This document shows, piece by piece, positions 18,687 to 33,377 of a stretch of DNA of 64,000 bases. The translations under genes were made by a program, and so were the position numbers. Within the stretch, counting starts at the first letter, position 1. Every line of letters starts with the position of its first letter. Below the pieces are notes generated by a model. The model was not told where the DNA came from. It saw only the letters and a program-made list of their open reading frames with translations, and did no database searches. Source of the stretch: Kluyveromyces lactis (taxonomy: Eukaryota; Ascomycota; Saccharomycetes; Saccharomycetales; Saccharomycetaceae); NCBI RefSeq assembly GCF_000002515.2, contig NC_006042.1:558001-622000 (forward strand), in the 5' to 3' direction.

Positions 18687-20213
18687 ATGCGAGGTATCTT
18701 GACTCTTTTTGTTATTTGGCTTCATTTTGTTTATCCTGTCATATGTACTGAATACCTTGTTAGCTTGAAGACTCCAAGAGCTTTAAGGTATGTTTTCAAC
18801 TTTAAAATCGGCGGGTCCAGTGTCAAGGAATTGATAGAATCGAAGATCCACAGAGAATTCTCATTCGGTAAGTTCAATGCCATTTCTGTTGATATTCCTC
18901 CTGTTCTAGCGGATAAGTTGAAAGATGTACCATTTATAAGTGATGTTGTGGCTAATGTGAAGATTAGTTTGTTCGATGAGTTCCCACAAATCGCTTCAGG
19001 ATTAAACAATGATCAATATGACTTCGAAACTGAAGATGAGGAAGAGGCAGAAGAAGATGAGGGGAGTGATACTTATGAAGATGATGATAATTACGACGAG
19101 GATACAGACAATGGAGATACCGATTTTAGCGATGACTTCATCTCACAATCTCGAGCTCCAAGACATCTAGCAAGAATTTCTCGAAGAGCACAGTTACCAG
19201 TCATCGAGAAAGATGATACCTCATCTGGATTGAAATACCATTACCATGAAGAACACCAGGGTGAAGGGGTTTTCGTTTATGTACTTGATAGTGGAGTTAA
19301 TCATGACCATCCCGATTTCGAAGGAAGGGCTATGAAAGGTATTGATACTACTGGAGAAGGCTCCGGAGATCTCGTAGGACATGGTACCCATGTTGCAGGT
19401 TTAATCGGTTCCAAGACTTATGGAGTGGCCAAGAAAGTTAATATTGTTGAAGTGAAGGTCCTAGATTCCATGGGAAAAGGCACTGTCACAAATATCATCG
19501 AAGGATTGGAATATGTCGTGAACCAATGCATCGGAAAGAAGAGAAAATGTGTCATAAACATGAGTCTCGGTGCACCAGGAACCCATTCGATTTTAGATAA
19601 AGCTGTTTCAGCAGTAATCGAAGAGGGTGTCGTGGTTGTTGTTGCTGGAGGAAACAGTGGATTGAACGCATGTTGGTACAGTCCTGCTAAGGTCAGGAAA
19701 GCAATTACTGTGGCTGCAATGGACGATAGAACCGATCTAATGGCACCATTCTCAAACTGGGGCGCTTGTATTGATATATGGGCTCCTGGTGTCAACGTGA
19801 AATCCCTTTCCAATAAAGGCCGGGGCACTTTTGTATTGAGTGGAACATCAATGGCATCTCCAATAGTAGCAGGTGCAGCTGCCATCTATTTGGATCAAGG
19901 TGCAGACCCTGCTGAAGTGAGAAAGATATTGAGTAAGACTGCTACGAGAGGTGTTTTCAAGAAGAGAGCTATTGCTGTAAGACCAAGAACTCCAAATAAG
20001 GTTCTCTATACAGGAAACAATCAAGAGGATGATGAATTTGCTTACGCAGTTTACCCGATGATTGATGAGATAAAATTCATGGATCAGTTAAAGCAAGCTA
20101 CAAGTCGAGTGAAACCGCCAAGTGGCGAGATGATTAATCTAGTAACACATGATAGAAAGATACTTAAACCACGATTGAGTAAGTTCCTAAAAAAAGTGAG
20201 TAACAATTCTTAA
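18687..20213 (+). CDS. RRT12: Secreted subtilisin-family serine protease, Rrt12-like
   Basis: Subtilase of the proteinase K/Prb1 group; 508 residues versus about 491 in S. cerevisiae Rrt12, which acts in formation of the dityrosine layer of the spore wall. Residues 1-20 form a hydrophobic signal peptide. Residues 21-97 match an inhibitor I9 propeptide. A strongly acidic linker (about 112-150) comes before a basic stretch ending near SRRAQLP, a likely maturation region. The catalytic triad is complete: Asp201 (YVLDSGVNHDHPDF), His232 (GHGTHVAG) and Ser388 (GTSMASP), with oxyanion Asn323 (AGGNSG). The C-terminal 90 residues are polar and end basic. The BUD23-IMG1-RRT12 run equals YCR047C-045C, which supports RRT12 over PRB1 or YSP3. 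Confidence 0.88.
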   Translation: MRGILTLFVIWLHFVYPVICTEYLVSLKTPRALRYVFNFKIGGSSVKELIESKIHREFSFGKFNAISVDIPPVLADKLKDVPFISDVVANVKISLFDEFPQIASGLNNDQYDFETEDEEEAEEDEGSDTYEDDDNYDEDTDNGDTDFSDDFISQSRAPRHLARISRRAQLPVIEKDDTSSGLKYHYHEEHQGEGVFVYVLDSGVNHDHPDFEGRAMKGIDTTGEGSGDLVGHGTHVAGLIGSKTYGVAKKVNIVEVKVLDSMGKGTVTNIIEGLEYVVNQCIGKKRKCVINMSLGAPGTHSILDKAVSAVIEEGVVVVVAGGNSGLNACWYSPAKVRKAITVAAMDDRTDLMAPFSNWGACIDIWAPGVNVKSLSNKGRGTFVLSGTSMASPIVAGAAAIYLDQGADPAEVRKILSKTATRGVFKKRAIAVRPRTPNKVLYTGNNQEDDEFAYAVYPMIDEIKFMDQLKQATSRVKPPSGEMINLVTHDRKILKPRLSKFLKKVSNNS

Positions 20214-20911: not shown

Positions 20912-21571
20912 TTATAAGATTACAGACTTGATACCGCACCATCCTGCAGCAGCAGCAGCCATCAAAGCGGATGCGTAACCCATTGGTTTCAATCCTCTAG
21001 AAGATCTGAAAATAGCACCAGTTAAAGCACCAGCTGCCACTGAGCCAGCAACATCATGCTTACCTCTGAAAGAATCGATCACTGAGTTGATCAAGTTGTA
21101 AGTTAAGGCCAACACACCAGCATTGTTACCCAAAAATGGACCTCTTCTTGTGATATGGTTTAATACTGTATTCAATTGCAATTTACCTGGTGAGTTAGGT
21201 GGGATGTTCTTCAACCCTTCAATGAACCCATAAGAACCACCAAGACCTAAACCAACCAAGTATACAGCACCAGTACCGTAACATAAATCGTCTGTCCAAC
21301 CTCTAGATGGAATCAAACCTTGAGAACCTTCCATTGAAGAAAGCTGTTCTTCTTCCAAATCCATATACTCAACACCACGCTCTAGCCCTGCTAATGGGTG
21401 AAGCTGTGATGGACTTAATCCTCCTGGAACAGAAATAACGTTCGACACATTCGAAATTGATGATGGATCGAATCCTAGAGTTTGTTTCAGTTTATCATCA
21501 TTTTGTTCAACTGGTGTAGTATTTTCTTGTGAGTCTGTAGATGACTTCTTACCACCGAAGAGCCAAGACAT
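20912..21571 (-). CDS. TIM23: Presequence translocase channel subunit Tim23
   Basis: Core of the TIM23 complex in the mitochondrial inner membrane. The 219 residues match S. cerevisiae (222). The N-terminal half is a soluble intermembrane-space domain with MSWLFGGKKS, HPLAGLERGVEYMDLEEEQLSS and the invariant QGLIPSRGWTDDLCYGTGAVY leading into span 1. Spans 1-4 follow with GxxxG packing motifs. LQLNTVLNHITRRGPFLGNNAGVLAL contains the loop and Tim17/22/23 signature, and GAIFRSSRGLKPMGY marks the final region. No presequence is expected. The gene is divergent from ACC1 as in S. cerevisiae YNR017W/YNR016C, but a small ORF and a very long leader lie between them here. Confidence 0.98.
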   Translation of the reverse strand: MSWLFGGKKSSTDSQENTTPVEQNDDKLKQTLGFDPSSISNVSNVISVPGGLSPSQLHPLAGLERGVEYMDLEEEQLSSMEGSQGLIPSRGWTDDLCYGTGAVYLVGLGLGGSYGFIEGLKNIPPNSPGKLQLNTVLNHITRRGPFLGNNAGVLALTYNLINSVIDSFRGKHDVAGSVAAGALTGAIFRSSRGLKPMGYASALMAAAAAGWCGIKSVIL

Positions 21572-22580
21572 AGCTATACTTTATTATTATTATTATTAGC
21601 CTTAGTTTATATGGTATCGGTCAAAGGATGAAAAATCAGGAAGAGATTAGACCCGGTCCGTATTCGACAATAATGAAGCCCTGTATTTATCGGAGTATTG
21701 CCTTGATAGACTGAAATGCAATGGTAACCTAGCAAAATACCAATACGGAAAAGATGTCTTTGTCTTAGTATCTACAACTCAAACCTTCGAGGGTGATTCA
21801 ACGTATCATACTACTACTTTAAACACTTTTCGATTGTAAAATTATATTTCACTAATTTTTCAAAATTTCAAAATATTTCAAGAACTACGGTTTTTTTTTT
21901 CTTCCTCTTGTTTCTTCTTGCTTCACAAGAGACTCTGTGATTTCAAGACCATTCAAGGTAAAATCAACGAATCGTACAAAATGATGATTCATGTAACCGG
22001 AACCGTTCTGCAGATGTAGCTGACCTCTGTTTTGAGCGCAGCGAAGGGTAAACAGAGAGAAAAAAATTTGTCATTTCATTTAGCATTTCTAGCGACAAAA
22101 AAAATATTTAAAACTGACGCCCGCCATGAGACAATGTTATTTCACACGACATTGCAAAAGTTATCACTGGGTTTCCAAACAGATATCAACTGAGGTATCT
22201 TTGGATGAAACTTTACCTACGCAGATTGATAGAAATCTGTAAAAAGGAGCGCATTGCCCTTAAATTCGTACAAAGAATACAAAGGAAAATTGGGGATTTG
22301 TTAGGAAACGACTTTTCTGAAATTATACATTTTCAAACCAGTATATATATATAAAGGGATCCGTATAAACCTTTCATATCAATGTACTGTCGCTAATGTT
22401 TTTTTTTAAAATCGCCTGGGATAATTTGTGAAAGCATTTCAGATACTAAGGTAGCATACATGCACTAACGCATTTCAAGGCTTCACACTTTTGAATAAAC
22501 ATAAATTTAATATAAAGAGTGCAGTTTTACATGAAAAGGACGCTGGAACATATGTCAGTCTGCCCCTCAGAAAAACTCCG
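21572..22580. promoter_or_regulatory. TIM23 upstream region with a hairpin
   Basis: About 1 kb without a supported gene. A perfect 8-base inverted repeat, CTCTGTTT at 22025-22032 and AAACAGAG at 22050-22057, could form a hairpin with a 17-base loop. A C-box-like ATGATGA (21981) and a CTGA (22020) occur nearby, but no flanking terminal stem pairs them, so a snoRNA is not supported. Confidence 0.3.
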
Positions 22581-22694
22581 ATGAATAATTTAGAGAATCA
22601 TCAATTTTCATTCTCTGATGATTTGTTACACTGTGATTACACGATAAAACACAAGCTGTTAACCCGCTTTATGACGAAAAGTTTCACCCAGTGA
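22581..22694 (+). other. Possible upstream ORF of 37 codons
   Basis: An ATG-started frame ends 18 bases before the ATG of the next small ORF and is in the same frame. The frame is open further upstream to about 22491 but without ATG. It could be a translated leader peptide that controls the downstream ORF, an older N-terminal part of it, or chance. No transcript evidence can be seen. Confidence 0.25.
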
Positions 22695-22712
22695 TTGAAA
22701 TACAAACAAAAA

Positions 22713-22970
22713 ATGGCAGAACGTAGTGCTAGAGTCCAATTTGATTTGTTCGAGTCCGAAAAAGTGTTGTTGCGACACAAATGGATCAGAATATTAGAGG
22801 AGATTGACTCCGAAGTCTCAGTGACGCTTGGATTTGATCTATACAATACTAAGAAAGAGGATACGAAGTTGCACCACTGCGAGTTGAAGAAGGTGAACCA
22901 AATGAGAGTCGGTTACGACGAGTTCCTATTGAAGAAAATTAAGGAAGCTGGAATACAAAATGCGAAATGA
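22713..22970 (+). CDS. Unrecognised 85-residue protein
   Basis: The ATG start follows an A-rich leader, a favourable yeast context. The product is charged and probably helical throughout, with LFESEKVLLRHKWIRILEEIDSE as a probable amphipathic helix and a basic C-terminus (VGYDEFLLKKIKEAG). No membrane span, signal peptide or Cys motif is present. The amino-acid balance (many Glu, Lys, Leu and few codon oddities) looks like a real small soluble protein, possibly a binding partner of a larger complex. I do not recognise the family. S. cerevisiae has no gene I can name between TIM23 and ACC1. A fast-evolving small gene lost or unannotated elsewhere is the simplest view. Confidence 0.55.
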   Translation: MAERSARVQFDLFESEKVLLRHKWIRILEEIDSEVSVTLGFDLYNTKKEDTKLHHCELKKVNQMRVGYDEFLLKKIKEAGIQNAK

Positions 22971-25020
22971 TTTCTATCAATCTAAATTTTCATTCCAACA
23001 GCTGCTCACCCCTTGTATGCTTAACGCTTTTTTCTATACCGTTGTAACAATTTGTCTATAACTTAACTATCTTTCTCTCATGTCAGTCAGTTTATACTAT
23101 TTCCGCTTTTTTTTTTCTGACGTCTTGTAGTCGCAAACCACAAGAAACCGCAAGTCACGTGATCTCAAACCCTCATCTATCGCTAATCTATTCTAAAATC
23201 CAATCGTTGCAGCTTTCACATAAATAACCGCTGTATATCAACCGAATACAACTACTCCATTTCCTTCATTCAAAGATTTGTTCCCTTAAAACGCCAAACG
23301 TTCTTTCAGTCTAAAACCAAGCGCATTGCGGTTAATTGCTATTATCTGCCCAGATATAACACACTTCTTATCCTAAATTCTGTTGCATACCGTTGCTGTC
23401 AACGTGACGTGTACCAAATTGTTGGTACATGAATCATCTTGAACGACCACGGATAGTATGAACTTATGGGATCTTTATGAAATGTTCTACAGAAAAACAA
23501 AAATCCAACAACGATCCCAACAAGTTTTCAAACTTTTTCTTTCCCAAAAAAAAAATAGTGCTATGAAATTTCAAGTATGGTGAAATCACCACATCGTTTG
23601 GATGAAATGCCTAGACTGGGATGTAGAATGGATAGAACCAAGTTTTTTTTTTTTTTCTCTTCTCATCTTTTTGTTTGTTTTGTTAGTTTAGTTGAAATTT
23701 TGTCTAGATGAAGTGAAATGCACTCGGCGGCTTTTTATAAAGAAGAGGTTTTCCTGCTATTTTTTTCAAGCAAAGGGGTTTAAATAAACTTCGTGAATTT
23801 AAATTATATCAATTCTCTAAATCTTCTTAGGTTTTTATACATTGTATTTTCTGTCTTTCTGAAACCTCTTGACTCACTTTCAATTGATCAGTACTCTGTG
23901 GAAACTCATCAAGAGAAAGGGCTAACTAGAAGAGATAAGATATTTTAAAGATATCCAAGGAATAATTTTAGTTTGAAACTGAATTACTCAATATACACAA
24001 CAAACAACAACAACAACTTGTATTGAGAATATTTATTTGTTCATCCTATCATATTCATTCTGATTTCCTGTTAATATTGACAATAGGAGTTTCACACAAT
24101 TAAATCTGTCCCTTTTTGAGTACAACTATTACTAAAAGGTCATCAGCCCTCTGACAATTAATATCTGGATATTGCGTCAATTGTATTGAACGCATTTGCC
24201 TAGTAATACTATTTTTTTACCCTTCACGATTTTAATTTTGAGGTTATAAAGTTTAAAGAGACTTTTTTGTCCGTGAAAAGATGTATGTATAAACTAAACT
24301 AAACTATTACTAATAATGAAAACCTCTTTGGAGTTTATTTTTTGACAAGTTGAGATTGACATTGGAAACAAAGAATTACTGGAACCGCCTTACTCCTCTA
24401 TTATTACTTTTCAACCAATTGTTTCTCAGAAGATTTTATCTTAATATCAGTTTTTGAGAAAATGAAGATTGTTGGGGAAAAAATACGATACTGCATATTT
24501 TGAAATTTTGAAACCGTTTCCTTTTGTACACGATTATTGCGCTAAGGTTTTTCAATGGGTTCTACTTGTTCGTTTTTGAACTTTATTTTTTGGTTGAACG
24601 AAAGTTGAAAATTGAAAATCCAATGTTTTTATGCACAATTGAGGATGGCGACTGGTAAACGACAGAAGCATCAACTCCATTTCGTCTAGTGTATGTGTGA
24701 AACCTGTCATCTGTGAAGAATAGGTATATTGTTTAGCAACGAGAACAACTAACGTTGGTATTCCTTAGAAAGCGAAACTGATAGTGTGGCTAGAAAATCC
24801 CCACATTGTTCACATCTTTCAAGCCTTCGTTTAGTACTACATTGTTCATCGCACAATAATAATATTGCCGATAATCTCATAACTGCAGCGTTCCACAGCA
24901 ATATATAGGCATATGTGAACGATTTTTGCCGAGTTACAGTTTTATTTTCAGCCCACATTCGATATTACATCACTGTTCCCCTTCATTGTCTGTCTGCTGT
25001 CAAAAACTAAAACTTCATAG
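22971..25020 (+). promoter_or_regulatory. ACC1: Very long ACC1 leader/promoter region
   Basis: About 2 kb without a supported gene, the longest gap in the window. It has GTCACGTGAT at 23154-23163 (Cbf1-type E-box), TGACGTC near 23118 (CRE-like), long T tracts (about 23644 and 23890), an ACAAC repeat near 24001, and ATGTGAAC at 24913, a weak relative of the inositol/choline-responsive element known to drive fatty acid synthesis genes. GTATGT at 24691-24696 is a possible 5' splice site. Nothing here reads as a protein or known RNA. Confidence 0.4.
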
Positions 25021-25035
25021 AGGTTAAAGAAAGTT

Positions 25036-25275
25036 TTGTTAAAAAGAGTAAGCATAAACCGAATAGTACGTTTGCTAGTTTCTTTTTTTCAGAAACTTTC
25101 TATTATTATCATTATTGTAACATTGATCAAATTGACTAACTTAACTCTTTACAGACTGTTCCCGGTTTTAGCTAGACATTCTCGGTTCATTCCGCTCGCC
25201 AACAAATTTACAGTTCATTTTAGCATATTTTCACCAAGACTATTCCATTCTACACGCAATATATTAAGAAGCAAA
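25036..25275 (+). CDS. HFA1: Non-AUG N-terminal extension of ACC1 (candidate mitochondrial presequence)
   Basis: The frame is open from the stop at 25018-25020 up to the ACC1 ATG with no ATG inside. Possible initiators are TTG at 25036 (G at -3), ATA at 25054, or the ATT cluster at 25102-25116. The product is rich in Arg, Lys, Leu, Ser and Ile, has no Asp or Glu, and ends SPRLFHSTRNILRSK just before the normal start, which looks like a cleavable matrix-targeting signal. In S. cerevisiae the separate paralogue HFA1 makes mitochondrial acetyl-CoA carboxylase from a non-AUG start; here one gene could serve both compartments. A TGACTAAC...TTTACAG at 25132-25154 could instead be a 3' splice site within the region. 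Confidence 0.65.
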
Positions 25276-28200
25276 ATGAGTGAGGAAAATCTTTCTGAGG
25301 TTTCAATCTCTCAAAGTAAACAATACGAAATTACTGAATATAGCGATAGACATTCCAAGTTGGCTTCTCATTTCATTGGTCTGAACACTGTGGATAAGGC
25401 AGATGATTCTCCATTGAAAGAGTTTGTCAAATCACATGGTGGTCATACTGTGATCTCAAAGGTTTTGATCGCTAACAATGGTATCGCAGCCGTTAAAGAA
25501 ATCAGATCGGTTCGTAAATGGGCCTATGAAACCTTCGGCGATGAAAGAACTGTTCAATTCGTGGCCATGGCCACTCCAGAAGATCTTGAAGCCAACGCAG
25601 AATACATTCGTATGGCTGATCAATATATCGAAGTTCCCGGTGGTACCAACAATAACAATTATGCAAACGTTGACCTAATTGTTGAAGTTGCCGAAAGAGC
25701 TGATGTAGATGCAGTTTGGGCAGGTTGGGGTCATGCTTCAGAAAACCCACTACTCCCTGAAAGGCTAGCCGCTTCTCACAGAAAGATTATATTTATTGGT
25801 CCACCAGGAAATGCCATGAGATCTCTCGGTGATAAGATCTCGTCCACTATCGTTGCCCAACACGCTAAGGTTCCTTGTATCCCATGGTCTGGTACTGGTG
25901 TCGATGAAGTTCATGTTGATAAAGAAACTAACTTGGTCTCTGTCGAAGATAAAGTATACCAAGAAGGTTGTTGTTCGTCTCCAGAAGACGGTCTAAAGAA
26001 AGCCAAGGAAATTGGTTTCCCAATTATGGTCAAGGCTTCCGAAGGTGGTGGTGGTAAAGGTATCAGAAAAGTCGAAAATGAAGATGAGTTCCTGTCTTTG
26101 TACCAACAAGCTGCTAATGAAATTCCTGGTTCTCCAATTTTTATTATGAAGTTGGCTGGTAAGGCTCGTCATTTGGAAGTTCAACTTTTGGCTGATCAAT
26201 ATGGTACCAACATCTCTCTATTTGGTCGTGATTGTTCTGTTCAAAGACGTCATCAAAAGATTATCGAAGAAGCTCCTGTAACTATCGCTAAGCCAGATAC
26301 CTTCACTGAAATGGAAAAAGCAGCCGTCAGATTAGGTCAATTGGTTGGTTACGTTTCTGCTGGTACCGTCGAATATTTATATTCTCATGATGAAGACAAG
26401 TTCTACTTCTTGGAGTTGAACCCAAGATTACAAGTTGAACATCCAACCACAGAAATGGTTACTGGTGTTAACTTGCCGTCTGCCCAGTTACAAATCGCTA
26501 TGGGTATTCCAATGCACAGAATCAGAGATATTAGATTGTTATACGGTGTCGATCCAAAATCTGCATCCGAAATTGACTTTAACTTCTCTACACCTGAGTC
26601 TGCTAAAACTCAAAGAAAACCAACTCCTAAAGGTCACTGTACTGCCTGCCGTATCACATCCGAAGATCCAAATGAGGGTTTCAAACCATCTGGCGGTGCT
26701 TTACACGAATTGAACTTCCGTTCTTCTTCCAACGTTTGGGGTTATTTCTCTGTTGGTAATAATGGTGGTATCCATTCATTCTCTGACTCTCAATTCGGTC
26801 ATATCTTCGCCTTCGGTGAAAACAGACAAGCTTCAAGGAAACATATGGTTGTTGCTTTGAAGGAATTATCTATCAGAGGTGATTTCAGAACTACGGTTGA
26901 ATATTTAATCAAATTATTGGAAACCGAAGACTTCGAAGACAATACCATCACGACTGGGTGGTTGGATGATTTGATTTCTCAGAAAATGACAGCTGAAAAG
27001 CCTGATAGAACCCTATCTGTCATTTGTGGTGCCGCTACCAAGGCTCATATTGCCTCCCAAAAAGCCAGAGAAGATTACATCTCATCTTTGAAGAGAGGCC
27101 AAGTTCCAAACAAATCATTACTACAAACAATGTACCCAATTGAATTTATTCATGATGGTATGAGATATAGATTTACTGTTGCTAAATCAGCCGACGATCG
27201 TTATACTCTATTCATTAACGGTTCCAAGTGCGAAGTTGGCGTAAGGAAGTTATCTGATGGTGGTTTGTTGATTGCCGTTGGTGGTAAATCACACACCATT
27301 TACTGGAAGGAAGAAGTTGCTGCTACCAGATTATCAATCGACTCTAAGACAACTCTACTAGAGGTTGAAAATGATCCAACACAACTCAGAACTCCATCTC
27401 CTGGTAAATTGGTCAAGTTTTTGGTCGAAAACGGTGATCATGTTATTGCTGGCCAACCATATGCCGAAGTTGAAGTTATGAAGATGCAAATGCCATTGAT
27501 TTCTCAAGAAAATGGTGTCGTTCAGTTATTGAAACAACCAGGCTCTACTCTGGCCGCCGGTGACATTCTAGCCATCTTAACTCTAGATGACCCTAGTAAA
27601 GTCAAACATGCTAAGCCTTACGAAGGCATGCTACCAGAATTGGGTGCTCCAATCGTTGAAGGTACCAAGCCTGCATACAAATTTAAATCTTTGGTCACTA
27701 CTTTGGAAAACATCTTGAAGGGATACGACAATCAAGTTATTATGAATGCTTCATTGCAGCAATTAATTGAAGTGTTGAGACAACCAGAATTACCATACTC
27801 TGAATGGAAATTACAAGTTTCTGCTTTACATTCAAGATTACCACCTAAGTTAGACGAAATGCAAGAACAATTGGTCACCCGTTCATTCAAGAGAAATGCG
27901 GATTTCCCAGCAAGACAACTAGAAAAGATGTTAGAAGCTGCCTTAAATGATCCTAACGTTGACCCATTGTTTAGCACTACCATTGAACCACTTGTTGATA
28001 TTACTACCCGTTACTCTAAGGGACTTGCTGCTCATGAACATTTTGTCTTTGCCACTTTCTTAGAAAACTATTACAATGTCGAAAAATTGTTCTCTGGGCC
28101 AAACATTCGGGAAGAAGACGTCATCTTAAAATTGCGTGATGAGAACCCTGACGACTTGGAGAAGGTTGTTTTAACCGTCCTAGCTCACTCCAGAGTATCA

Positions 28201-31200
28201 GCCAGAAACAACCTGATCCTTGCCATTTTGAAGCATTATCAACCGCTATGCAAATTGAGCTCTGAGGTAGCCGCTGCTATCGAACAACCATTGAAACACA
28301 TCGTCGAATTAGAATCTAAGGCCACCGCTAAGGTTGCTCTACAAGCCAGAGAAATTTTGATTCAAGGTGCTTTGCCATCTATCAAGGAGAGAACAGATCA
28401 AGTTCAATACATTCTTAAGTCATCTGTTTTAAGCACTTCATATGGTTCATCCGAAACGAAGCGCACAAAACCTGATTTAGAAGTTTTAAAGGACTTGATC
28501 GATTCCAACTATGTTGTTTTCGATGTGTTGGCCCAATTCTTGACAAATCCAGATGATGCCGTTTCTGCTGCTGCTGCCGAGGTCTACATTAGAAGAGCAT
28601 ACAGAGCGTACACTATTGGTGATTTGAAGCATCAAAAGTCTTCTGGATCACCTGTAGTTGAGTGGAAGTTCCAACTTCCATCTGCTGCATTCACCTCATT
28701 GCCACAGGTTAAGAGTAAATTGGGTATGAACAGAGCTATTTCTGTCTCTGATTTGACTTATGTCTCTGACGGTGAAAACCAACCATTAAGAACTGGTTTG
28801 TTGATTCCTGCTAGACATCTAGATGATGTTGATGGTATTTTGTCGTCAGCTCTATCTTTAATTCCTTCTCATCATATGTCTACTGGCCCTGTCCCAGACA
28901 GATCTGGCTCTTCAGCCAGCTTGTCTAATGTTGCCAATGTTGTTGTGTCTTCAACTGAAGGATTTGAATCTGAGTCGGATGTTTTAAAGAGACTCAGAGA
29001 GATACTCGATTTAAACAAGCAATCATTAGTTGACTCTGCTATTCGTCGTATTACCTTCGTGTTTGGATACAGTGATGGTACATATCCAAAGTACTATACC
29101 TTCCGTGGTCCAAATTACAATGAAGATGAAACAATTCGTCACATTGAACCAGCTCTAGCTTTCCAACTTGAACTAGGTAAGATGTCGAACTTCAATATCA
29201 GACAAATATTTACTGAGAACAGAAACATTCATGTCTATGAGGCCGTTGGTAAAAACTCTCCGGTTGACAAGAGATTCTTTACCAGAGGTATTATCAGAAC
29301 AGGTCGTATTAGTGACGACATTTCCATCCATGAATATTTGACTTCAGAAGCTAACAGATTAATGAGTGACATTTTGGACAACTTAGAGATCATTGACACT
29401 TCTAACTCAGATCTTAACCATATTTTCATTAACTTCTCTGCTGTATTTGACATTTCGCCAGAAGCTGTTGAAGCTGCCTTTGGCGGTTTCTTGGAAAGAT
29501 TTGGCAGAAGATTGCTCAGATTACGTGTTGCCGCTGCTGAAATCAGAATTATTATCAAGGACCCTCAAACTGGCACCCCGGTTCCAATCAGAGCGTTGAT
29601 CAACAACGTCTCGGGCTTTGTTGTGAAGACTGAATTGTATACAGAGATCAAGAATGCACAAGGTGAATGGATTTTCAAATCTTTAGATAAACCAGGTGCT
29701 ATGCATTTGAGACCTATTGCCACTCCTTATCCTGCAAAGGAGTGGTTACAGCCAAAACGTTACAAGGCTCATTTGATGGGAACCACATACGTTTACGATT
29801 TCCCAGAGCTATTCCGTCAAGCCACCGTGGCACAATGGAAGAAACACTCTCCAAAGACCAAGTTGTCAGACGATTTTTTCATTGCAAATGAATTGATTGA
29901 AGATGAAAATGGTGAATTAACTGAAGTTGATCGTGAACTTGGTGCTAATAACATCGGTATGGTTGCATTCAAGGTTACTGCAAAAACTCCAGAATACTCT
30001 CATGGCCGTCAATTTGTCATAGTCGCCAATGATATCACTTTCAAAATTGGTTCGTTCGGTCCACAGGAAGATGCCTTCTTCAACAAGGTTACTGAATATG
30101 CAAGAAAGCGTGGTATCCCAAGAATATACTTATCTGCCAATTCAGGTGCAAGAATTGGTATTGCCGAAGAGCTTGTTCCATTGTTCCAGATTGCTTGGAA
30201 TGATGAAAAAGATCCAGCAAAGGGTTTCCAATACTTATGGTTGTCAGATGAGTCTCTTGAAGAACTCAAATCTAAGGGTAAAGACAATGCTGTTGTTACC
30301 GAATGTGTTGTTGAAGAAGGTAAGGTCAGAAACGTCATTACTGCTATTATCGGTTCGGAAGATGGTCTTGGTGTTGAGTGTTTGAAGGGATCCGGTTTAA
30401 TTGCAGGTGCCACTTCAAGAGCGTACAAGGATATCTTCACGATCACCTTAGTTACTTGTAGGTCTGTGGGTATCGGTGCTTATCTAGTCAGATTAGGTCA
30501 AAGAGCCATTCAAATCGAAGCACAGCCAATCATTTTAACCGGTGCTCCTGCCATCAATAAGCTTCTTGGTAGAGAAGTTTACTCTTCAAACTTGCAATTG
30601 GGTGGTACTCAGATCATGTACAACAATGGTGTTTCACACTTAACTGCTCCAGATGATTTGGCTGGTGTTGAAAAGATCATGGACTGGTTATCTTACATTC
30701 CTGCCAAACGTGATCTACCGGTTCCTATTTTGGAATCTGAAGATAAATGGGACAGAAAAATTGACTATGCTCCATCTTTAAACGAACAGTACGATGTTAG
30801 GTGGATGATTGCAGGTCGTGAATCTGCCGATGGTTTCGAATATGGTCTTTTCGATAAAGGTTCCTTCCAAGAAACCTTGTCTGGTTGGGCCAAGGGTGTT
30901 GTTACAGGTAGAGCCCGTTTAGGTGGTATTCCATTAGGTGTTATTGCCGTTGAAACAAGAATTGTCGAAAATTTGATTCCTGCTGATCCTGCTAATCCTG
31001 ATTCTACCGAAATGTTGATTCAAGAAGCCGGCCAAGTTTGGTATCCAAATTCCGCGTTCAAGACAGCCCAGGCTATCAATGACTTCAATCATGGTGAACA
31101 ATTGCCATTAATGATCCTAGCCAACTGGAGAGGTTTCTCTGGTGGACAACGTGATATGTACAACGAAGTTTTGAAGTATGGTTCTTTCATCGTTGATGCA

Positions 31201-31971
31201 TTGGTTGATTACAAACAGCCTATAATTACATACATTCCTCCAACTGGTGAACTAAGAGGTGGTTCTTGGGTTGTTGTTGATCCAACTATCAATGCTGACC
31301 AAATGGAAATGTATGCTGATATAAACTCAAGAGCTGGTGTTTTGGAACCAGAAGGTATGGTCGGTATCAAATACCGTAGAGAAAAATTGTTGGCTACTAT
31401 GGCAAGATTAGATGACAAGTACAGAGAGTTGAAAGCCAAGTTGGCCGATTCCACTTTGACTCCAGAAGAACATCAAGAAGTATCAAAGCAGCTTGCTATC
31501 CGTGAGAAGCAATTGTTGCCAATTTACCATCAAATTACAGTACAGTTTGCTGACTTGCATGATAGATCCGGTCGTATGTTGGCAAAGGGTGTGATCAAAA
31601 AGGAATTGGACTGGCCAGAAGCTCGTCGCTTCTTTTTCTGGAGATTAAGAAGAAGATTAAACGAAGAATATTTGATGAGAAGATTAAATAACGAGCTAGG
31701 ATCTGCTTCTAGACTAGAGAAAATGGCAAGAATCATATCATGGTACCCAGCTTCTGTGAGCCAAGATAACGACAGAGAAGTTGCTACTTGGATCGAAGAA
31801 AACTACCAATTCTTGGATGAACAAGTTAAGAGTCTGAAGTTGGAAGCTTTCGCACAAAATTTGGCAAAATCTATCAGAAACGACCGTGAAAATTCCATCA
31901 ATGGTTTGGCGGAAGTTTTGAAATTATTGTCTGCCAAAGACAAAGAAAAGCTTCAAAAAGCTTTGGAATGA
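25276..31971 (+). CDS. ACC1: Acetyl-CoA carboxylase
   Basis: Multidomain biotin enzyme that makes malonyl-CoA, the committed step of fatty acid synthesis. From the ATG at 25276 it has 2231 residues against 2233 in S. cerevisiae, and the start (MSEENLSEVS) aligns with the cytosolic protein. The order is biotin carboxylase (about 55-560, with EGGGGKGIRKV and ELNPRLQVEHPTTE), biotin carrier domain with biotinyl Lys736 in VMKMQMP, the large central region, and carboxyltransferase beta and alpha halves (about 1500-2200, with NSGARIGIAEE and WRGFSGGQRDMYNE). MNRAISVSDL places Ser1156 in a Snf1/AMPK consensus, equivalent to the inhibitory Ser1157. An in-frame non-AUG extension precedes it. It is convergent with DUS2, as in S. 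cerevisiae. Confidence 0.99.
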   Translation: MSEENLSEVSISQSKQYEITEYSDRHSKLASHFIGLNTVDKADDSPLKEFVKSHGGHTVISKVLIANNGIAAVKEIRSVRKWAYETFGDERTVQFVAMATPEDLEANAEYIRMADQYIEVPGGTNNNNYANVDLIVEVAERADVDAVWAGWGHASENPLLPERLAASHRKIIFIGPPGNAMRSLGDKISSTIVAQHAKVPCIPWSGTGVDEVHVDKETNLVSVEDKVYQEGCCSSPEDGLKKAKEIGFPIMVKASEGGGGKGIRKVENEDEFLSLYQQAANEIPGSPIFIMKLAGKARHLEVQLLADQYGTNISLFGRDCSVQRRHQKIIEEAPVTIAKPDTFTEMEKAAVRLGQLVGYVSAGTVEYLYSHDEDKFYFLELNPRLQVEHPTTEMVTGVNLPSAQLQIAMGIPMHRIRDIRLLYGVDPKSASEIDFNFSTPESAKTQRKPTPKGHCTACRITSEDPNEGFKPSGGALHELNFRSSSNVWGYFSVGNNGGIHSFSDSQFGHIFAFGENRQASRKHMVVALKELSIRGDFRTTVEYLIKLLETEDFEDNTITTGWLDDLISQKMTAEKPDRTLSVICGAATKAHIASQKAREDYISSLKRGQVPNKSLLQTMYPIEFIHDGMRYRFTVAKSADDRYTLFINGSKCEVGVRKLSDGGLLIAVGGKSHTIYWKEEVAATRLSIDSKTTLLEVENDPTQLRTPSPGKLVKFLVENGDHVIAGQPYAEVEVMKMQMPLISQENGVVQLLKQPGSTLAAGDILAILTLDDPSKVKHAKPYEGMLPELGAPIVEGTKPAYKFKSLVTTLENILKGYDNQVIMNASLQQLIEVLRQPELPYSEWKLQVSALHSRLPPKLDEMQEQLVTRSFKRNADFPARQLEKMLEAALNDPNVDPLFSTTIEPLVDITTRYSKGLAAHEHFVFATFLENYYNVEKLFSGPNIREEDVILKLRDENPDDLEKVVLTVLAHSRVSARNNLILAILKHYQPLCKLSSEVAAAIEQPLKHIVELESKATAKVALQAREILIQGALPSIKERTDQVQYILKSSVLSTSYGSSETKRTKPDLEVLKDLIDSNYVVFDVLAQFLTNPDDAVSAAAAEVYIRRAYRAYTIGDLKHQKSSGSPVVEWKFQLPSAAFTSLPQVKSKLGMNRAISVSDLTYVSDGENQPLRTGLLIPARHLDDVDGILSSALSLIPSHHMSTGPVPDRSGSSASLSNVANVVVSSTEGFESESDVLKRLREILDLNKQSLVDSAIRRITFVFGYSDGTYPKYYTFRGPNYNEDETIRHIEPALAFQLELGKMSNFNIRQIFTENRNIHVYEAVGKNSPVDKRFFTRGIIRTGRISDDISIHEYLTSEANRLMSDILDNLEIIDTSNSDLNHIFINFSAVFDISPEAVEAAFGGFLERFGRRLLRLRVAAAEIRIIIKDPQTGTPVPIRALINNVSGFVVKTELYTEIKNAQGEWIFKSLDKPGAMHLRPIATPYPAKEWLQPKRYKAHLMGTTYVYDFPELFRQATVAQWKKHSPKTKLSDDFFIANELIEDENGELTEVDRELGANNIGMVAFKVTAKTPEYSHGRQFVIVANDITFKIGSFGPQEDAFFNKVTEYARKRGIPRIYLSANSGARIGIAEELVPLFQIAWNDEKDPAKGFQYLWLSDESLEELKSKGKDNAVVTECVVEEGKVRNVITAIIGSEDGLGVECLKGSGLIAGATSRAYKDIFTITLVTCRSVGIGAYLVRLGQRAIQIEAQPIILTGAPAINKLLGREVYSSNLQLGGTQIMYNNGVSHLTAPDDLAGVEKIMDWLSYIPAKRDLPVPILESEDKWDRKIDYAPSLNEQYDVRWMIAGRESADGFEYGLFDKGSFQETLSGWAKGVVTGRARLGGIPLGVIAVETRIVENLIPADPANPDSTEMLIQEAGQVWYPNSAFKTAQAINDFNHGEQLPLMILANWRGFSGGQRDMYNEVLKYGSFIVDALVDYKQPIITYIPPTGELRGGSWVVVDPTINADQMEMYADINSRAGVLEPEGMVGIKYRREKLLATMARLDDKYRELKAKLADSTLTPEEHQEVSKQLAIREKQLLPIYHQITVQFADLHDRSGRMLAKGVIKKELDWPEARRFFFWRLRRRLNEEYLMRRLNNELGSASRLEKMARIISWYPASVSQDNDREVATWIEENYQFLDEQVKSLKLEAFAQNLAKSIRNDRENSINGLAEVLKLLSAKDKEKLQKALE

Positions 31972-32297: not shown

Positions 32298-33377
32298 TCA
32301 GTCAGACGTCTTCGTCGATTTGAGATTGTTCAATCTCTGTTTCTCAGCCATTTCCTTTTCACGTTCTTGGATTAAAAATGGTATTGGATCATTCAATGCA
32401 CCGCCACTAGAACCTAATTGCTGACAAACATGTGCAAAGTCAGAGAGTTTACGGCATTGTGTAAAGTATTGATAGAATGGAGATTTCCCGGGAGTCATTC
32501 TATTCATCATATATTTAACATTTGCAGGATGATGGTTGTATTGGTTTGCTATATCCAGGTATTCTTTTACCGCTTTGAACCATGGCAATGGTGATTCAGA
32601 AAAAACTGTTGGATTTCTCTCAGCACAATCCGCCATCATACCACCAATAGTTTTAGGTAGGTTCAGATCACTTCGTAGCTGTTCGAAATGTTCCTTATCC
32701 CTGATAGCACCGTTCATTATTAACGATACCTTATTACGTTCACATATTTCATATATTTTTGGAATATATGCCCGGATTGGAGATTCTCTGTTTCTCATCG
32801 GGGTAGTTCTACAATGAACAGTTAAGTTCGTGATACCAGTTGCACATAATTTTTCCACCAAAGTCAAAGTATCTTCTTCATCTTTTAGGATTCTAATCTT
32901 CACGGAAATAGGTTTCCCATAAATCTTCCCAACTTTCTCAACTAACTCAATCAAAATGGAGCATAATTTATCCGGAGTCTGCAATAGAGCTGCACCCATT
33001 CCAGAATGAATGGAGAAATGTTTAGGACATCCCGCATTTACATCAATACCAGCAACATCCTCAATAACCTTGAGAGCGGCTTCGACAGCGAGCGATGGAG
33101 TTGATGTTCCGATCTGAAATATGAGTTTTCCATGCTCTACTTCTGGAACTGTCCTGAAAACCACACCAGGTTCCGTTCCCTCCCGTTTGGCAGGAATAAT
33201 AAAATCGACAGTCTTCAATGTATCATTAACCTGTCTTTGACACTGTATAAGTTTCTTGTCAATGATTTCTGGGGACCAGACCAAATCTGCGCCGTGCTTC
33301 AAGGCCAACAATCTCGTTGGCAGTTCACCTGCCCTGACCATAGGCGCAAGCACTAACTTTCCTGCATATTGTACCAT
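32298..33377 (-). CDS. DUS2: tRNA dihydrouridine synthase Dus2
   Basis: FMN-dependent enzyme that reduces uridine 20 in the D loop of cytoplasmic tRNAs (SMM1/YNR015W in S. cerevisiae, 384 residues). This one has 359. The start is the ATG at 33377, giving MVQYAGKLVLAPMVRAGELPTR, which aligns with the known N-terminus; the frame upstream would need a GTG. The TIM-barrel has the catalytic-Cys block NAGCPKHFSIHSGMGAAL near 110-127, KIRIL in the phosphate region, and LTVHCRTTPMRNRESP with the conserved His and Arg. Residues 225-240 (SLIMNGAIRD) complete the FMN site. The C-terminal helical domain ends in a charged tail. The double-stranded-RNA domain of animal Dus2 is absent, as in yeast. Confidence 0.95.
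   Translation of the reverse strand: MVQYAGKLVLAPMVRAGELPTRLLALKHGADLVWSPEIIDKKLIQCQRQVNDTLKTVDFIIPAKREGTEPGVVFRTVPEVEHGKLIFQIGTSTPSLAVEAALKVIEDVAGIDVNAGCPKHFSIHSGMGAALLQTPDKLCSILIELVEKVGKIYGKPISVKIRILKDEEDTLTLVEKLCATGITNLTVHCRTTPMRNRESPIRAYIPKIYEICERNKVSLIMNGAIRDKEHFEQLRSDLNLPKTIGGMMADCAERNPTVFSESPLPWFKAVKEYLDIANQYNHHPANVKYMMNRMTPGKSPFYQYFTQCRKLSDFAHVCQQLGSSGGALNDPIPFLIQEREKEMAEKQRLNNLKSTKTSD

Follow-up and report, generated by a model that had tools for sequence, protein, structure and literature searches.

The single ACC1 gene of Kluyveromyces lactis very probably makes both the cytosolic and the mitochondrial acetyl-CoA carboxylase (ACC), the former from an AUG and the latter from a near-cognate codon upstream of it, with the two roles split later between ACC1 and HFA1. 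The gene lies within the 64,000-nucleotide stretch of DNA that we analysed (the window), in which the following features frame the argument:

25276-31971, + strand: ACC1, acetyl-CoA carboxylase, 2231 aa, beginning at the AUG of the cytosolic form (open reading frame; Pfam; single full-length ACC match in the genome)
25021-25275, + strand: in-frame, ATG-less, acid-free extension of 85 codons, predicted to hold a mitochondrial presequence (sequence; background set and simulation; MitoProtII 0.9999 in PMC4263661)
25018-25020, + strand: in-frame TAG, the upstream boundary of the extension (sequence)
24916-25275, + strand: probable 5' leader of 360 nt, AUG-free in every frame (sequence)

The preliminary description of this DNA had reported an ACC1 frame that stays open for 85 codons between a stop and the ACC1 ATG, with neither ATG, Asp nor Glu and with an abundance of Arg and Lys, and the sequence confirms each of these points. 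Upstream of the ATG at 25276 there are 85 sense codons (25021-25275), bounded by the TAG at 25018-25020, which encode no Met from ATG and no acidic residue, and 17 basic residues (7 Lys and 10 Arg); immediately before the ATG the extension ends in SPRLFHSTRNILRSK. ATG is absent in all frames from 24916 to 25275.

As a background for this extension we used 104 ORFs no shorter than 150 aa, drawn from 264 kb of the 10.7-Mb genome, a sample made up of the window and 20 further stretches of its contig; 96 of these ORFs, ACC1 itself included, have a visible upstream stop. Among these 96, ACC1 ranks second for the length of the in-frame extension (the median is 11 codons) and first both for the acid-free tail (85 codons) and for net charge (+17). 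In extension length ACC1 is exceeded only by L026:5083-6081, whose ATG-less in-frame extension runs to 208 codons and is acidic, with 48 Asp or Glu; this is probably ordinary coding sequence, with the true start or an intron farther upstream. When 85-codon stretches were simulated under a first-order Markov model of the region 21573-25275, 75 of 20,000 were open, and none of the 20,000 was both open and acid-free. Because of the ranks among the 96 ORFs and this simulation, we regard the observation of the extension as correct and beyond chance. The length of the AUG-free leader is by itself unexceptional (rank 9 of 94).

Helix amphipathicity was not above that of shuffled sequences at any of the eight starts tried, with 100 to 410 of 1000 shuffles matching the observed moment; an amphipathic helix is a usual, not a defining, trait of presequences. 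The RNA of the leader at 25100-25290 folds more weakly than shuffles do (z +2.0; 197 of 200 shuffles fold at least equally well), and therefore gives no sign of a hairpin that would aid a weak start; such weak folding fits a leader open to scanning. A bacterial-type promoter scan is uninformative in yeast. Near the end of the extension there is one literal match to the MPP/Oct1 processing motif, R-x-[FLI]-x-x-[STG]-x4:

25237-25266, + strand: RLFHSTRNIL, which ends three residues before the AUG (motif match; weak)

In the extended relatives described below, this motif is no commoner around the junction of extension and ACC1 than shuffling would give (3 of 38; mean of the shuffles, 3.8). For that reason its support for a processing site here is weak, and we rejected it as a conserved feature.

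ACC1 itself carries the Pfam domains ACC_central, Carboxyl_trans, Biotin_carb_N/C, Biotin_lipoyl and ACCA_BT. The preliminary description had supposed that there is one ACC gene and no separate mitochondrial one, and this held when the ACC1 protein was searched against the whole genome (10,729,447 bases in 7 contigs). A single full-length match was returned, at the window locus, and the remaining eight of the nine matches are partial, at 22-44% identity over biotin-carboxylase or biotin-carrier stretches. In the same genome, a short open frame of 437 aa (C3:723086) matches ketoacyl synthase and another of 126 aa (C4:239539) matches an acyl carrier. Each is separate from a long frame of the fatty acid synthesis (FAS) type with the corresponding match (1916 aa and 1387 aa, respectively). 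Judging by size, the two short frames would encode parts of a mitochondrial type II FAS system. Because such type II FAS-like parts are present, a mitochondrial supply of malonyl-CoA is to be expected, and one gene was found that could provide it.

Counting ORFs of at least 150 aa, ACC1 is flanked by two genes on the opposite strand: one of the Tim17/Tim23 family on its upstream side (20912-21571) and one for a dihydrouridine synthase on its downstream side (32298-33377). The 3.7 kb between the Tim17/Tim23-family gene and ACC1 (21572-25275) contain no ORF of 150 aa, and beyond the Tim17/Tim23-family gene lies a subtilase-family protease gene (18687-20213; PF00082).

The idea that this gene yields two forms, including its evolutionary reading, is already in print for K. 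lactis ACC. PMC2704937 (2008), apparently the work that Suomi et al. cite as Turunen et al., noted a putative mitochondrial signal in the sequence upstream of K. lactis ACC and proposed that in yeasts with a single gene the two forms presumably arise from separate starts. Suomi et al. (2014; PMC4263661) reported one ACC gene in K. lactis, KLLA0F06072g, with a predicted presequence (MitoProtII 0.9999), and asked the question experimentally: K. lactis ACC with its 5' region, under the ADH1 promoter, rescued an S. cerevisiae hfa1 deletion in 12 of 18 isolates, and without the 5' region in 0 of 18. The 5' region is thus needed for the mitochondrial function of K. lactis ACC in S. cerevisiae complementation, and the authors concluded that a dual ACC gene is ancestral. 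As far as can be told, KLLA0F06072g is the gene described here, as it likewise has an ORF of 2231 aa (XP_455355 in Table 4 of PMC4263661) preceded in frame by a presequence, and there too a second ACC is lacking (PMC4263661, PMC2704937). The extension is 85 codons long in our sequence, compared with 83 aa in the text of PMC4263661 and 86 implied by its table (2317 less 2231). The same table gives 2231 aa for the A. gossypii ACC, a protein (P0035) that is 69% identical to the window ACC1 over the N-terminal half that we compared.

Known systems offer several points of comparison. S. cerevisiae HFA1, like the K. lactis gene, encodes a mitochondrial ACC whose presequence begins at a non-AUG codon (AUU at -372; PMC4263661), but it is a gene of its own that serves mitochondria only. 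In S. cerevisiae, GRS1 and ALA1 resemble ACC1 in that one gene serves two compartments through a non-AUG start (UUG, ACG), which lies 5' of an AUG in the same frame and has A at -3; they differ in encoding tRNA synthetases and in having shorter extensions, with starts at codon positions -23 and -25 (PMC2909995). In a yeast ALA1 reporter, UUG, CUG, ACG and AUU gave about half of the activity of AUG, and an A at -3 is common to the known non-AUG cases (PMC2909995). Four traits of the GRS1/ALA1/HFA1 type are found together in ACC1: an open, AUG-free, in-frame extension upstream of an AUG; a basic, acid-free presequence beyond chance; an in-frame near-cognate codon with A at -3; and no second gene for the mitochondrial enzyme. 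In ACC of the C. albicans type a presequence likewise precedes the same enzyme, but there it lies inside the annotated ORF (PMC4263661, Table 4), whereas the presequence of the K. lactis gene has no AUG of its own.

To place the extension among relatives we queried proteins with the N-terminal 170 residues, obtained 883 and examined the best 120 of them; the 120 were compared as protein sequences alone, and many are probably metagenome gene calls. Among the matches listed, 41 of the 120 start clearly upstream of the ACC1 start (79 were not counted as extended), and 38 of the 120 combine an extension with an internal Met near the cytosolic start, a count made on protein sequences irrespective of the number of ACC genes per species and in which the identical extensions of P0076, P0078 and P0079 each count separately. 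These 38 extensions contain 355 Lys or Arg and 33 Asp or Glu in 2006 residues, and 18 of them have no acidic residue at all; downstream of the extension, Asp and Glu make up 13% of the same proteins.

The other three of the 120 matches listed (P0068, P0099 and P0107) are extended and, unlike the K. lactis gene, have no internal Met at the cytosolic start. P0107 is from Saccharomyces eubayanus and bears a chromosome 13 name, P0099 resembles P0107 by eye, and P0068 is the second copy of Tetrapisispora phaffii, the other copy among the matches listed being P0017. From their names and sequences these three would be dedicated mitochondrial copies of the HFA1 type. A dual gene that later divides its roles predicts this pattern, the internal Met being retained in the 38 and lost from the putative dedicated copies, although the sample of three such copies is small.

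As a sequence, the presequence is hardly conserved. Protein searches restricted to the presequence recovered no relative: one gave P0007 itself and nothing else, and another no match at E 10 or better. The extension is barely alignable: just 2 of the 38 relatives (P0053 and P0054) beat all 500 shuffles when aligned to K. lactis.

Which codon starts the mitochondrial form is a narrower question, for which the leader offers these candidates:

25132-25134, + strand: UUG, the likeliest candidate non-AUG initiator, in the context AUCAAA-UUG-ACU, which would give a 48-residue presequence (context; N-termini of relatives by eye)
25123-25125, + strand: UUG, an alternative initiator with A at -3 (sequence context)
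25102-25116, + strand: AUU/AUC cluster, alternative initiators (sequence; S. cerevisiae HFA1 begins at an AUU, PMC4263661)

The in-frame near-cognate codons with A at -3 include AUU at 25105, 25111 and 25114, AUC at 25108, UUG at 25123 and 25132, and CUG at 25156. The preliminary description had proposed TTG 25036, ATA 25054 and the run at 25102-25116, which reads ATT ATT ATC ATT ATT. These codons and their contexts are as described (G at -3 for TTG 25036, A at -3 for ATA 25054); TTG 25123, TTG 25132 and CTG 25156, all in frame with A at -3, were absent from that list. The first two of the earlier candidates we judge less likely than UUG 25132, because a very hydrophobic run, LSIIIIIVTLI (encoded at 25096-25128), would then become part of the presequence. 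A second reason is that five relatives have N-termini which, aligned by eye, point to 25132.

Translation from UUG 25132 would begin (M)TNLTLYRLFPVLARHSRF... At the place that matches this codon by eye, relatives read MTNFNYRLLFLL (P0007, from its first residue), MTNKFRTLLRFF (P0052), MTNIRTLLRLF (P0061), ITNFNYRLLS (P0104) and LTYINRRLLFLL (P0002); the first residues of P0007 are MTNFNYRLLF, and those of P0052 and P0061 are MTN. These five relatives thus seem to share a position occupied by Met, Leu or Ile, the residues that would be expected there of an AUG or a near-cognate codon, and we offer this as a lead. The motif [MLI]T[NY]...R.L[LFR] occurs in 5 of the 38 extended relatives against 0.14 in shuffles, an enrichment that is circular, and hence a lead only, because the pattern was written after viewing those same five sequences.

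If the start lies upstream of 25102, the run LSIIIIIVTLI is sufficiently hydrophobic to serve as a signal that halts transfer through a membrane. Starts upstream of 25102, which would include all of the run, or within the AUU cluster, which would include part of it, are less attractive for a matrix presequence; its hydrophobicity might argue either for a downstream start or for sorting to the inner membrane. Context and relatives therefore lead us to favour UUG 25132 as the likeliest native initiator. The fuller proposal that it is the sole one, and that its position is common across yeasts, filled by AUG or by a near-cognate (Leu or Ile) codon according to lineage and so tuning the mitochondrial share of one ACC gene, we put forward tentatively, as possible and rather less probable than its contrary.

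We infer the exact initiator, the processing site, the native translation in K. lactis and the ratio of the two forms along the following lines. Some scanning ribosomes would initiate at a near-cognate codon (UUG 25132 as the likeliest, else UUG 25123 or the AUU cluster), giving a precursor whose basic presequence would direct import into mitochondria, where this form would supply the malonyl-CoA used in making type II fatty acids and lipoate. The majority of ribosomes would scan past these codons and initiate at AUG 25276, yielding the cytosolic enzyme. The division of the two roles between ACC1 and HFA1 would have followed the whole-genome duplication. The central claim of the preliminary description, that one gene gives rise to both enzymes, is supported by the one full-length gene, the basic, acid-free extension, the extended relatives and the published complementation with the K. 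lactis gene (PMC4263661). The unremarkable helix amphipathicity, the poor sequence conservation of the presequence and the lack of enrichment of the processing motif in relatives speak against it.

One alternative is that the presequence functions when forced in S. cerevisiae and is hardly used in K. lactis, where mitochondrial malonyl-CoA would come from another source. The published test was indeed heterologous and ADH1-driven (PMC4263661), and a literature search conducted mostly without full texts found no native K. lactis data for ACC1 (protein, ribosome-footprint or 5'-end); a mapped K. lactis initiator was found neither in that search nor in the available portion of PMC4263661. However, the genome has a single full-length ACC match together with type II FAS-like parts, and an extension with an internal Met recurs in 38 of the 120 relatives among the matches listed, so that we consider scant use in K. 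lactis improbable.

We give equally little weight to a second alternative, in which an intron in the 5' leader joins an upstream AUG exon to the ACC1 frame, so that the mitochondrial form would start at an ordinary AUG and splicing would set the ratio. It was prompted by the string GACTAAC...TTTACAG:

25134-25154, + strand: GACTAAC-N12-AG, a look-alike of an intron 3' end, unsupported as part of an AUG-supplying intron (donor-acceptor tests)

Here GACTAAC (25134-25140) is followed by a CAG that ends at 25154, and GTATGT occurs upstream at 24691 and 24283. The branch site is passable, because the core ACTAAC is carried by 99% of 130 K. lactis introns, whose consensus is TACTAAC (PMC2483917). 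The peptide TNFNYR, at a seemingly matching place in two relatives (P0007 and P0104), could encode the same splice signals; in K. lactis, the look-alike of branch site and 3' splice site coincides with the codons for TNLTLYR of the presequence. Against splicing as the source of an AUG, none of the 12 donor-like sites at 24200-25130 yields an in-frame AUG-led exon when joined to 25154. Across 21573-25275, 5 of 42 donor-acceptor pairs yield one; these five use donors other than GTATGT and would need introns of about 1.5-3.5 kb, whereas K. lactis introns apparently have a median length of 266 nt and a mean of 345 nt (from a row of a PMC2483917 table whose headings are not visible). A consensus donor, branch site and acceptor that join an in-frame AUG exon are therefore not found together at the ACC1 leader, and a term search of the main text of PMC4202332, which surveys the introns of this yeast family, gave no mention of ACC1.

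The weakest alternative, that the frame stays open by chance in an AT-rich leader and yields no product, would accommodate the unexceptional AUG-free length, the poor conservation and the unremarkable amphipathicity, but it is already contradicted by the published rescue (PMC4263661) and runs against the simulation, the first ranks of ACC1 for acid-free tail and net charge, and the comparable extensions in 38 of 120 relatives among the matches listed, and we regard it as very improbable indeed.

Since a dual ACC gene in K. lactis was put forward in 2008 and put to experimental test in 2014, the value that remains is narrow and concerns the codon used, the amount made and the response of the ratio to carbon source. 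To the published work we add the 38 of 120 relatives among the matches listed that have a basic, acid-poor extension and an internal Met, the three HFA1-like proteins that do not have this Met, and the proposal of UUG 25132 as the likeliest initiator. Read in this way, ACC1 of K. lactis is a clean example of one gene that serves two compartments through a non-AUG start, and an example of subfunctionalisation following genome duplication; it also illustrates that annotated yeast proteomes can overlook mitochondrial forms.
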